Part shown: one piece after another, positions 2,754 through 8,318 of the stretch | How positions within the stretch are numbered: position 1 is the stretch's first letter | How the letters are laid out: each line of letters begins with the position of its first letter | Source: Aurantibacter aestuarii | GTDB lineage: Bacteria > Bacteroidota > Bacteroidia > Flavobacteriales > Flavobacteriaceae | Direction: 5' to 3' | Length of the DNA: 64,000 nt | Assembly: GCF_003008425.1 (NCBI RefSeq) | Contig: NZ_PXOQ01000007.1 | Location: 186,001 to 250,000 of the forward strand | The notes under the pieces: generated by a model | Told to the model about the DNA's origin: nothing | What the model saw: the letters and a program-made list of their open reading frames with translations, nothing else | Databases searched by the model: none | Translations under genes and position numbers: made by a program

Positions 2754-4089
2754 AACTACCTTAATTAAAAACGCAAGAATTGTTACCGATGGACGTGTGT
2801 TTGAAGGTGATGTTTTAATTCAAGACGAACGTATTGTAAAAATAGATGATTCAATTAGTGTTAAATCTGCAGACGTATTTGTTTTAGATGCAGAAGGCAA
2901 ATATTTACTACCTGGACTTATAGATGATCAGGTACATTTTCGTGAGCCAGGATTAACTCATAAAGCAAATATTGCTTCAGAATCTCGAGCTGCAGTTGCT
3001 GGAGGAATTACTTCTTTTATAGAAATGCCTAACACTAACCCACAGACAACAACTATTGAAGCTTTTGACCAGAAATTACAAATTGCTTCAGAAAGTGCAT
3101 TTGCTAATTACGGATTTATGTTTGGGGGAACAAACGATAATCTTGAGGAAATAAAAAAATTAGACAAACGCAAGGTTGCGGGATTAAAATTATTTCTTGG
3201 CTCTTCTACAGGTAATATGCTGGTAGATAATCCAGATGTTTTAGAGAAAATTTTTAAAAGTACCGATTTAGTCATTTCAGTACATTGTGAAGATGAAGAA
3301 ACTATAAAGGCAAACACTTCAAAATACATTGCAGAATATGGTGAAGATATCCCTGTTAAATATCATCCAATCATAAGAAGTGAAGATGCTTGCTATATTT
3401 CATCTTCAAAAGCTATAGAACTAGCAAAAAAAACAGGTGCTAGATTACATGTTTTTCACTTGTCTACAGGAAAAGAAACAGAATTATTTTCTAATAAAAC
3501 ACTTCTAAAAGATAAAAAAATCACAGCCGAGGTTTGTATCCATCATTTATGGTTTAATGATAAGGATTATGATACAAAAGGCACCTTAATAAAATGGAAC
3601 CCTGCGGTTAAGACAGAAAAAGATCAACAACAACTTTTAAAAGCATTATTAGCCGATAAAATTGATGTGATTGCTACAGACCATGCGCCTCATACTTTAG
3701 AAGAAAAAAATAACGTTTATACCAAAGCACCTTCTGGTGGGCCATTAGTACAGCACGCTTTACCTGCATTATTAGAAATGCATCATCGAGGATTAATTTC
3801 TATCGAGAAAATTGTTGAAAAAGCTTGCCACAATCCTGCTATATTATTTAATGTTAAAGATAGAGGTTATATAAAAGAAGGCTATTATGCCGATTTGGTT
3901 TTAGTAGATTTAAATCAACCTTGGACTGTTAAAAAAGACAACTTACTTTATAAATGTGGATGGTCTCCTTTTGAAGGCACTACATTTAAATCTAGAATTT
4001 CTCATACTTTTGTAAATGGTCACTTAGCTTATAACAACTTTAAAGTTAACGAAAACCGTTTTGCAAAAGCTTTAACTTTTAACCGATAA
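2743..4089 (+). CDS. pyrC: Dihydroorotase (amidohydrolase family)
   Basis: A 448-residue type I dihydroorotase of pyrimidine synthesis. Visible motifs are PGLIDDQVHFREPG near residue 60, GLKLFLGSS with the lysine that is carboxylated in active enzymes, SVHCEDEE, LHVFHLST and VIATDHAPHT with the catalytic Asp. The first His of the usual HxH metal motif is Gln (DQVH). I recall this as normal in Bacteroidota dihydroorotases, so I still call it a functional enzyme. It overlaps the glycosyltransferase gene and is followed 2 bp later by a lipoprotein gene, forming a three-gene operon. Confidence 0.88.
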   Translation: MTYKTTLIKNARIVTDGRVFEGDVLIQDERIVKIDDSISVKSADVFVLDAEGKYLLPGLIDDQVHFREPGLTHKANIASESRAAVAGGITSFIEMPNTNPQTTTIEAFDQKLQIASESAFANYGFMFGGTNDNLEEIKKLDKRKVAGLKLFLGSSTGNMLVDNPDVLEKIFKSTDLVISVHCEDEETIKANTSKYIAEYGEDIPVKYHPIIRSEDACYISSSKAIELAKKTGARLHVFHLSTGKETELFSNKTLLKDKKITAEVCIHHLWFNDKDYDTKGTLIKWNPAVKTEKDQQQLLKALLADKIDVIATDHAPHTLEEKNNVYTKAPSGGPLVQHALPALLEMHHRGLISIEKIVEKACHNPAILFNVKDRGYIKEGYYADLVLVDLNQPWTVKKDNLLYKCGWSPFEGTTFKSRISHTFVNGHLAYNNFKVNENRFAKALTFNR

Positions 4090-5613: not shown

Positions 5614-6927
5614 ATGACAACAAATCCTTTAGTAGAAGAATTAACTTGGCGTGGTATGGTTCACGATATGATGCCAGAAACCGATATGCAGTTAAATAAA
5701 GAAATGACTACAGCTTATATTGGTTTTGATCCTACTTCAGATTCGTTACATATTGGAAGTTTAGTCCCAATTATTTTATTGGTTCATTTAGAGAAAGCCG
5801 GACATAAACCTGTCGCTTTAGTAGGTGGAGCAACTGGTATGATTGGTGATCCTTCTGGAAAAAGCGACGAGCGTAACTTGCTGGATGAAGCTACACTTAA
5901 CCATAATGTCGCAGGTATAAAAAGTGTCTTATCTCGTTTTTTAGATTTTAATTCCACTAAAGACAATGCCCCAGTTTTAGTAAATAATTACGATTGGATG
6001 AAGAATTTTAGCTTTATCGATTTTGCTAGAGACGTTGGAAAACGTATTACTGTTAATTATATGATGGCTAAAGATTCTGTTAAAAAACGTTTATCTGGAG
6101 ACGAAGGAAATGTCGGAATGTCTTTTACAGAATTTACCTACCAGTTAATACAAGGTTACGATTTTTACCATTTACATAAACACCTTAATTGCAAATTACA
6201 AATGGGTGGAAGCGACCAGTGGGGAAATATTACTACTGGAACCGAATTGGTAAGACGCATGAATGCTGGAGATGAAAAAGCAAAAGCTTATGCTATGACC
6301 TGCCCGTTAATTACTAAAGCAGACGGTTCTAAATTTGGTAAAAGTGAAGGTGGAAACATCTGGCTGGATGCTGAAAAAACTTCAGTATATAAATTTTACC
6401 AATTTTGGTTAAACACAACCGATGAGGATGCTGAAAAATACATTAAAATTTTTACGTTTTTAGACAAAACCACCATTAACCAATTAATTGCTTCTCATCA
6501 AGCTGAACCTCATCTAAGACAATTACAAAAACGCTTAGCAGAAGAAGTTACCACATTTGTGCACAGTAAAGAAGATTTAGATAACGCCATAAAGGCTTCA
6601 GAAATTTTATTTAGTAAAGATTTCAAAACAGATATTAATGCTTTAAATGAATCTTTATTCTTAGACGTTTTTGAAGGTGTAAAAACTTCAGAAGTTTCTA
6701 GAGACAAAATTGAGGCAGGTATAGATATGATTGCTGCACTCTCTGCAGAAACTAATTTTTTAGCAAGTAATGGTGAAGCCAGACGTGCCTTAAAAGAAAA
6801 CTCGGTTGCCGTAAATAAAGAAAAAGTAACTGAAGATTACACTATTAACAACAGTGATTTAATCCATAATAATTATGTTGTAATTAATAGAGGTAAGAAA
6901 AAAACTTTTATTATTAAAGTCGTATAA
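5614..6927 (+). CDS. tyrS: Tyrosyl-tRNA synthetase
   Basis: A 437-residue class I synthetase. The HIGH-type motif is [10 protein letters not shown] near residue 46 and the KMSKS-type motif is KFGKS near 248, typical of bacterial Tyr[12 protein letters not shown] contributes to the tyrosine pocket. A C-terminal S4-like RNA-binding domain covers about 365-437. Length is normal. It is transcribed alone and ends at a strong hairpin immediately downstream. Confidence 0.97.
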
Positions 6928-6931
6928 ATAG

Positions 6932-6965
6932 AAAAAAGCGCAGTTTTCTAAAACTGCGCTTTTTA
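6932..6965. terminator. Terminator after tyrS, bidirectional
   Basis: A 12-bp perfect stem (AAGCGCAGTTTT/AAAACTGCGCTT) with a 2-nt loop, A-run on the left and T-run on the right. It can stop tyrS on the plus strand and also lies just after the first micro-ORF on the minus strand. Confidence 0.85.
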
Positions 6966-6970
6966 AATAG

Positions 6971-7001
6971 AAAATTAGTAAACCAACCAAAAACTAATTT
7001 T
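6971..7001 (-). repeat. Hairpin repeat copy 1, with micro-ORF
   Basis: Arms AAAATTAGT/ACTAATTTT around a loop AAACCAACCAAAA-type sequence. On the minus strand an ATG at 7004-7002 runs into the repeat and gives MKISFWLVY followed by TAA (7004-6975). The strong stem at 6936-6961 follows, with a T-run on that strand. Copies 2 and 3 are nearly identical. Confidence 0.7.
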
Positions 7002-7034
7002 CATATATAATAGACTATTCAAATGCTTTAATAA

Positions 7035-7065
7035 AAACCTCGACTTAAAGATTAAACCGAGGTTT
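7035..7065 (-). terminator. Terminator-like hairpin between repeat copies 2 and 1
   Basis: Stem AAACCTCG/CGAGGTTT (7035-7042 and 7058-7065). On the minus strand it is followed by a run of five T, so it reads as a terminator for a transcript carrying copy 2. Confidence 0.5.
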
Positions 7066-7072
7066 AAAAAAC

Positions 7073-7102
7073 AAAATTAGTAAACCAACCAAAACTAATT
7101 TT
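7073..7102 (-). repeat. Hairpin repeat copy 2 (one base shorter)
   Basis: Same arms as copy 1, but the loop lacks one base. On the minus strand the missing base shifts the frame after KISF, and a stop lies upstream with no ATG, so this copy does not encode the micro-peptide. Confidence 0.7.
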
Positions 7103-7167
7103 TCTCTTTCACTTCTATATACGTAAATAAATAGGTTAAGGTTTTAATTTTTAACGTTTTATAAGAC

Positions 7168-7202
7168 AAAAGCTCTAATTTTTTCAAATCAGAGCTTTTT
7201 TT
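7168..7202. terminator. Terminator-like hairpin between repeat copies 3 and 2
   Basis: Stem AAAAGCTCT/AGAGCTTTT. The plus-strand T-run is long (seven), the minus-strand one short (four). Direction is therefore uncertain. Confidence 0.5.
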
Positions 7203-7205
7203 AGA

Positions 7206-7236
7206 AAAATTAGTAAACCAACCAAAAACTAATTTT
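7206..7236 (-). repeat. Hairpin repeat copy 3, with micro-ORF
   Basis: Same 31-nt hairpin as copy 1. On the minus strand an ATG at 7245-7243 gives MKKKISFWLVY and TAA (7245-7210). The ORF is 11 codons and shares its last eight residues with copy 1. Confidence 0.7.
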
Positions 7237-7337
7237 CTTTTTCATAATACCTAAGTCGTAGAAATAAGTTTATACTTACACCTACATATATGTTTTTTGT
7301 AATAAAATTAGATACAGATTTTTGGTGACCTATGGTG

Positions 7338-8318
7338 TTATAGAGCCATTAAATTACAACCTCTAATATCACTTGCATCAAAACGACCAACGACTTCAAA
7401 ACAACCATTAGGATGCACTTTACCTAAATCCTGAGTAGCTATAAAACTACAGGAATTAAAGTTTGCAAGATCAATTATGTTAAGACCACCTGTTTTTCCT
7501 TTTTTTTGAATAGATAAAGCATCTTCTGGATCTCTTGTAATTACTTTCATCCAAGAAGGACATTTAAAGATTCCGTTTCCTTTAGAATAGGCTTGACTTA
7601 ATAATTCAGTCATTCCATACTCACTATGTATGCAATCCACTCCAAAACCTTTTGTTAGCACTTGATGAAGTTCTTCTCTAATTAATTCTTTACGCATCCC
7701 TTTCATTCCACCAGTTTCCATTATCGTGGTATGTTGTAATTGAAACTGATAGGTTTCTATTAAAGTTAATAGTGCAAAAGTAACCCCAATAAGTAATGTT
7801 TTTTGACCTTTAGCTTCTAGTTGATTAATCTTGGTTTTAAGTTGCTCGTATTGGTTGAGATAAAAACCACTATCAGGCTGTTTTGAGCGTTTAATTAAAT
7901 CATCTACCATATAGATTAAAGATGATCCTTCACGCTCCAAATAATTTGGCAGAAGCGCTAAAATGACATAATCTTCAATTGGACCATAAAAATGCTTAAA
8001 TGCATTTATATAACTTTCTTCATAAACTGAACAATCGGTTACCAAATGTTTACTAGTTATACTTCCAGTGGTTCCGCTACTGGTAAAAGTTTCTTGAACT
8101 GATTGTTGAGAAGAAATAACTTCATGAGATTTGAAAAACTGAATAGGTAAAAACGGAATATCTTCAACCTTAGAAACAGTGCTTGGATGAATGTACAATA
8201 AGTCACAGAAAGACCTATAAACACTATTGTTTTCAAACTGAAACTTAAACACTTTTAAAGCTTGACGCTCAAAGTCGGCTTCCGTTTGTATACTAAAAAT
8301 ATCCCTAGCGTGTATCAT
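7338..8318 (-). CDS. LuxE/PaaK-family acyl-protein synthetase-like enzyme
   Basis: A 326-residue adenylate-forming enzyme of the LuxE family. TFTSSGTTGS near residue 82 is the phosphate-binding SGTTG loop, and SEYGMTELLSQAY near 235 is the YGMTE adenylation motif. The family activates or transfers acyl groups. No luxC, luxD or luciferase genes are nearby, so bioluminescence is not implied. Genes like this occur singly in Flavobacteriaceae, and a role in activating a carboxylic acid or lipid precursor is inference. It reads towards the hairpin array. Confidence 0.8.
   Translation of the reverse strand: MIHARDIFSIQTEADFERQALKVFKFQFENNSVYRSFCDLLYIHPSTVSKVEDIPFLPIQFFKSHEVISSQQSVQETFTSSGTTGSITSKHLVTDCSVYEESYINAFKHFYGPIEDYVILALLPNYLEREGSSLIYMVDDLIKRSKQPDSGFYLNQYEQLKTKINQLEAKGQKTLLIGVTFALLTLIETYQFQLQHTTIMETGGMKGMRKELIREELHQVLTKGFGVDCIHSEYGMTELLSQAYSKGNGIFKCPSWMKVITRDPEDALSIQKKGKTGGLNIIDLANFNSCSFIATQDLGKVHPNGCFEVVGRFDASDIRGCNLMAL

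Follow-up and report, generated by a model that had tools for sequence, protein, structure and literature searches.

Introduction

To our knowledge, few regulatory RNAs are known in the Flavobacteriaceae. MicL of E. coli is described as a sigma-E-dependent small RNA of 80 nt, released by processing of a roughly 300-nt precursor whose start lies inside the cutC gene (PMC9438474). In Fusobacterium, FoxI and FoxJ (the latter about 156 nt) are reported as sigma-E-dependent small RNAs with demonstrated regulation (PMC11005410). FopS and GibS are presented as paralogous small RNAs of Bacteroides, one FopS RNA being derived from a 3'UTR (PMC11697453). The structured small RNAs Rfp11 and Rfp18 of F. 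psychrophilum are described as conserved beyond the species, and the same report assigns an ECF-type motif whose -10 box reads CGT to type IX secretion genes, to an ECF-sigma/anti-sigma pair and to Rfp11 itself (PMC9723704).

Here we analyze a tandem array in Aurantibacter aestuarii, located in a 64,000-nt stretch of contig NZ_PXOQ01000007.1 (hereafter, the window) to which the array coordinates below refer. Judged by its sequence relatives, the array is a real, conserved RNA element. We consider it probable that the array and its relatives form a Flavobacteriaceae small-RNA family that is ECF-driven and MicL-like, with read-through into promoterless duplicates and a loop that would act in trans.

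A three-copy array downstream of a LuxE-like gene

The array lies between two genes. Its upstream neighbor on the minus strand is a LuxE-like gene (7338..8318; Pfam LuxE PF04443, 57.6 bits), and a convergent gene on the plus strand (5614..6927) is, by its sequence, presumably tyrS. The first-pass annotation had described three near-identical inverted repeats, spacers without common sequence, a one-base deletion in copy 2 and a terminator-like stem for every copy, all of which are borne out. The hairpins occupy the minus strand at 6970..7002 (unit 1; 47 bits with model R2), 7073..7103 (unit 2; 36 bits) and about 7204..7237 (unit 3; 55 bits, loop UUUUUGGUUGGUUU); copy 2 lacks one A as read on the plus strand, so that its minus-strand loop is one U shorter, and the spacers of about 70 and 102 bp have no evident likeness. 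The terminators, all on the minus strand, lie directly to the left of the copies as read on the plus strand: that of unit 1 (6933..6964) is palindromic and fits a tyrS terminator on the plus strand as well, that of unit 2 (7035..7065) is a terminator-like stem, and that of unit 3 (7168..7199) is possibly leaky because its T run is short and interrupted. All three units have the same order on the minus strand, the hairpin first and an intrinsic terminator no more than a few nucleotides after it, and the element folded together with its terminator gives z scores of -3.4 to -8.6 against shuffled sequences (six foldings: three units, both strands).

Unit 3 carries a -35-like box GTAAG (7275..7279, minus strand) and a -10-like box CGAC (7255..7258, minus strand) in a GTAAG-N16-CGAC pattern. 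The boxes and the terminator would set the ends of a predicted small RNA of about 85 nt (7163..7249, minus strand; fold z -4.5). No promoter-like boxes were found for units 1 and 2. The array is best read as one unit with a putative promoter of its own plus two duplicates that lack an evident one; three copies are the highest number met among the loci examined.

A genome-wide search with the repeat, proposed in the first-pass annotation, found the 16-mer AATTAGTAAACCAACC exactly three times in the 2.9-Mb genome, each time in the array; when up to 3 mismatches are allowed, its sites are no more numerous than expected from the reversed control (102 versus 93). Model R2 likewise has three matches in this genome, all of them array copies, so the element is not a general terminator part. 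REP-type repeats, expected as many dispersed copies, were rejected given three copies in one place.

Relatives at the LuxE-like/tyrS locus

A 27-nt pattern, allowing up to 3 mismatches, occurs in 6 of 299 family genomes, including that of A. aestuarii, and its reversed control in none. Five of the six carry it at the LuxE/tyrS locus; the sixth, G245, has it elsewhere (L034) and was excluded from the models. An exact degenerate pattern run over the genome collection returned 33 stretches, from which ten were dropped by eye as belonging to other phyla or lacking a terminator and synteny. The 23 kept loci come from Lacinutrix, Olleya, Bizionia and other Bacteroidota, and the invariance of the pattern letters among them is built in, because the search pattern was exact. 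L042, a short near-copy of L062, was excluded from the alignments.

A LuxE-like gene lies upstream of the element in 23/23 kept loci, with an apparently broken frame in L054, and in some of them a YHS-like gene (Pfam YHS match below the cut-off) follows the LuxE-like gene and precedes the element and its terminator. Convergent tyrS is found in 21 of the 23, the exceptions being L053 and L070, and in L056 one gene intervenes. Apart from the three copies in the window, there are two in G193, the one other genome of this genus in the collection, and two in Lacinutrix mariniflava. Tandem multiplication of the unit is seen in three lineages. In Lacinutrix, the unit is duplicated along with a piece of the 3' end of the YHS-like gene (L053:2902-3177; L043 near 3056-3150).

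A second locus behind a lipoprotein gene

With model R1, 31 of 397 family genomes gave a match at E 0.05, and the search pointed to a second locus, where the element stands on the 3' side of a lipoprotein gene and, in many genomes, a LysM gene comes next. Model R2, built from both loci, matched 53 of the 397 at E 0.02. The nominal numbers of chance matches are about 20 for R1 and about 8 for R2, and a weak match was accepted only if synteny and a terminator backed it. The 27 newly found loci that were examined comprise 23 at the lipoprotein locus, two of which (L159 and L173) have no lipoprotein gene, three at the LuxE locus and one after an asparagine synthase gene. In that last case, a like hairpin and terminator stand at L181:1534-1579, the gene being assigned by Pfam. 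Two matches were judged to be chance: L089 lies inside a coding sequence and L184 lacks the motif. At the level of the order, R2 matched 3 of 296 genomes at E 0.005, namely A. aestuarii itself, a member of the family and a match that lacks the motif.

The lipoprotein gene is present in 80 of 120 family genomes (one per genus), although the protein (L133:1501-2454) matches no Pfam or NCBIfam family. After setting aside G083, where the gene is cut by a contig end, and G010 and G013, where it is decayed, 77 genomes were analyzed, and the exact motif TTGGTTGGTT was found downstream of the gene in 56 of these 77 genera. A. aestuarii has the lipoprotein gene with no element at it, while G061, G049, G044 and G071 carry the element at both loci. 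In genus g128, probably Flavobacterium to judge by the size of the genus, 10 of 11 genomes lack the lipoprotein gene and all 11 lack an R2 match.

The element core recurs at two conserved loci and in one further case with the same loop. It is neither absent elsewhere nor drifting freely, the outcomes named beforehand as telling against selection, but is retained in other genera. A motif-like element was also seen in L095/L300, 3' of an ECF-sigma gene that is followed by an outer-membrane barrel-domain gene (L300:1061-3178 and the following stretch); it gave a single weak R1 match in L095 (E 0.019) and is absent from the R2 matches at E 0.02. A gene upstream of this arrangement is presumably recA.

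Promoter-like boxes

At the LuxE locus, GTAAG-N16-CGAC precedes 20 of 40 distinct units, unit 3 of the window included, and GAAAG-N16-CGAC precedes 11, where by eye it sits inside the 3' end of the YHS-like gene. Neither pattern is found in nine units: units 1 and 2 of the window, the second G193 copy and six others. The strict GTAAG pattern, itself spotted by eye in these very sequences, occurs in none of 9200 shuffled upstream stretches. The distance from the end of CGAC to the loop motif varies from 32 to 65 nt, so the boxes do not merely travel with the hairpin. In letters and spacing they resemble ECF-sigma promoters; the Bacillus sigma-X promoter, for example, reads TGTAAC/CGAC. A GTAAG-N16-CGAC regulon is not apparent in the A. 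aestuarii genome (4 occurrences versus 8 in the control).

At the lipoprotein locus, the candidate boxes lie within the gene. Synonymous-site conservation among 26 lipoprotein genes peaks in the last third, where a CGTT box is found; the excess codon homozygosity at the peak is 0.23, against a mean of 0.085 over 248 codon columns, and the next highest value, 0.19, falls in the signal peptide. The CGTT box is present in 52 of the 56 genera with the motif versus 7 of the 21 without it (Fisher p 2.7e-7, phylogeny ignored), and the upstream box TTAACATTAGATTATGA averages 15.8 versus 13.7 of 17 letters in the same comparison (p 3e-4, phylogeny ignored). L170 has a hairpin without the CGTT box and L263 the box without the motif; L133 and L170 are exceptions to a strict box-motif rule. 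A house-keeping promoter was considered and rejected: the pattern TTG-N17-23-TAnnTT(T/A)G occurs in one (L091) of seven loci scanned, the window copies being judged by eye.

Proposed function

According to the model we favor, each unit would be transcribed from the minus strand as an RNA of about 85 nt that begins with a short A-rich stretch, continues with a hairpin whose loop holds UUUU(A/G)GUUGGUU and closes with an intrinsic terminator. Unit 3 would have its own promoter of the ECF-sigma type, GTAAG-N16-CGAC, shortly after the LuxE-like gene, and transcription would get to units 2 and 1, which have no evident promoter, by reading through leaky terminators. At the second locus, the promoter would sit within the 3' end of the lipoprotein gene and serve an RNA at that same end. 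The loop would be the working part, acting in trans through base pairing or protein binding. Sequence comparison shows the conservation of the element, its strand, structure and terminator, the promoter-like boxes and, at the lipoprotein locus, its survival without the host gene. Transcription, ECF dependence, trans action and read-through are steps that we infer, and a trans-acting small RNA is favored because the plan matches MicL, with FoxI/FoxJ as a precedent outside the Proteobacteria.

Searches for partners gave no site specific to the element. Loop-complementary sites before ATGA are about twofold over the reversed control both in carriers (146 versus 73) and in non-carriers (90 versus 48), with no carrier-specific excess among the 120 genomes compared (64 carriers and 56 non-carriers, of 149). 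The sequence AACCAACYAAAA itself stands shortly before ATGA about twice as often as its reversed pattern, with or without the element, and is perhaps a general leader feature. In the A. aestuarii genome, the loop complement with up to two mismatches has 230 sites against 244 for the control, the best ones mostly inside genes.

Tentatively, and with less assurance than for the small-RNA family itself, we suggest that the element may be a family-wide noncoding arm of an ECF-sigma response concerned with the envelope or type IX secretion: the core lies 3' of unrelated genes, has its own ECF-type promoter by sequence, outlives its host and, in one genome, possibly stands 3' of an ECF-sigma operon. 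Retained at the lipoprotein locus in 56/77 genera tested, and having promoter-like boxes and a loop open to mutation, the motif offers an entry to post-transcriptional control in the phylum and to what its ECF sigma factors do. It also bears on how 3'-end small RNAs outlive their genes of origin.

Structure, persistence and alternative explanations

The U-rich sequence UUUU(A/G)GUUGGUU, conserved on the minus strand, stands just before the terminator and often forms the loop of a stem rich in A and U. When the LuxE locus is taken by itself, stem covariation is unexceptional: 2 cells have changes on both sides, a number that 154 of 500 shuffles also attain. Between loci the stem is exchanged, AAAATTAGT/ACTAATTTT against GAAACTAAA/TTTAGTTTC, around the same loop, and comparison across loci by five measures gives 30 such cells and a covariation score of 0.434, values that none of 500 shuffles attains. 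Two of the measures, pairs changed (5/9) and pair types, are unexceptional, with 239 and 262 of the 500 shuffles attaining them. Not every copy has the hairpin: many of those at the lipoprotein locus retain UUUUGGUUGGUUA without the 5' arm. In genus g132, two genomes (L264 and L265, immediately behind the lipoprotein gene) have the motif paired instead with a following arm, which would sequester it. The constant part of the element, as aligned, is the loop sequence, which is steadier than the stem.

A loop steadier than its stem, together with tandem multiplication in three lineages, would also suit an RNA whose tandem U/G-rich loops titrate an RNA-binding protein in the manner of CsrB. The CsrB/RsmZ sponges carry GGA in their hairpin loops; the loops here read (A/G)GUUGGUU, with no GGA of the CsrA kind, and membership in that group was rejected. 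The element is also mostly single-copy per locus. We regard titration as unlikely, though a protein binding the U/G-rich loop is a live alternative.

Slightly less probable is a cis-acting 3'UTR element that stabilizes, processes or regulates the upstream mRNA only, with no free small RNA. The position of all 23 kept LuxE-locus elements 3' of LuxE-like or YHS-like genes would agree with it, as would the several units without promoter boxes, but the same loop occurs beside unrelated host genes at different loci, and five genomes retain the element although their lipoprotein gene is lost or decayed. In L091, L092, L100, L159 and L173 the lipoprotein frame is lost while hairpin and terminator remain; a lipoprotein match is absent in G009 (L159) and G040 (L091), and G013 (L100) has a remnant with a stop. 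The boxes persist in the decayed genes of L091, L092 and L100 and, by eye, in L173 and weakly in L159. Between L091 and L092, the 67 nt of element plus terminator are the same and the box region is 88-93% identical, compared with 30-45% over four 40-nt blocks elsewhere and 72% and 80% over two. Comparison of these genomes shows an element that outlives its host gene at the lipoprotein locus.

The near-invariant, palindromic arms at the LuxE locus could point to a regulator that binds a palindrome in the DNA, or the RNA could run on the plus strand. Over the inner eight pairs of 65 distinct hairpins, with the register chosen strand-blind and related sequences counted several times, there are 440 Watson-Crick, 63 G-U, 3 A-C and 10 other pairs; without 12 poorly paired hairpins the counts are 388, 32, 1 and 1. 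The excess of G-U over A-C argues against both proposals, neither of which would favor G-U. The terminators are placed for the minus strand, following 63 of the 65 hairpins versus 29 of 1300 shuffles, and the element survives with its terminator only; we consider these two readings very improbable. Selection on the core as RNA, in the form of tandem small RNAs, which the first-pass annotation had entertained, is supported by its spread over many genera, the stem exchange, the G-U asymmetry, the terminators and the promoter-like boxes.

Two further suggestions from that annotation did not hold. A leader system is judged unlikely because the element is 3' of its neighbor gene and next to a convergent gene. 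The minus-strand micro-ORFs MKISFWLVY and MKKKISFWLVY are open in window copies 1 and 3 as described, but a micro-peptide family MK(KK)ISFWLVY has next to no probability, since an ATG frame runs through the loop in 4 of 45 distinct units and gives this peptide in the two window copies (2/45), the other two frames being an unrelated one of 38 residues and one of 3.

Comparison with known systems

The element is best read as a putative small-RNA family without an Rfam match. No Rfam family, Flavo-1 included, reaches its gathering score in window positions 6800-7400, in five loci or in four loci of a further run; the matches in the window and the five loci all fall below that score and look like terminator look-alikes, the four-locus run giving none. 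A search among plasmids gave only three short matches (E 0.03 to 0.4), and no title or abstract describing the element was found among open-licence papers, which is weak evidence.

As far as the published descriptions go, the element shares with FopS/GibS its place in the Bacteroidota and the plan of paralogous short small RNAs ending in a terminator. FopS is set apart, by description, through its single-stranded 5' seed in place of a loop, canonical house-keeping promoters and 14 copies, and no Rfam match bearing the FopS or GibS name appears at E up to 10 in window positions 6800-7400, the presence of such a model in Rfam 15 being unconfirmed. Compared by description only, Rfp11 and Rfp18 are likewise structured flavobacterial small RNAs found in other species too, and Rfp11 has an ECF-type promoter. 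FoxI/FoxJ, as reported, offer a noncoding arm of an ECF response outside the Proteobacteria, which the present element would parallel in a different phylum.

The likeness to MicL is one of plan. Unlike MicL, the core recurs at several loci and in tandem at one. An ECF-type promoter is found, by sequence, in or just after the host gene, except for window units 1 and 2, and an intrinsic terminator directly follows the conserved core. At the lipoprotein locus, the ECF-type promoter would lie inside a coding gene with the RNA at the gene 3' end, and the precursor, at an estimated 300 nt or so, and the conserved part of about 80 nt would both be as in MicL.
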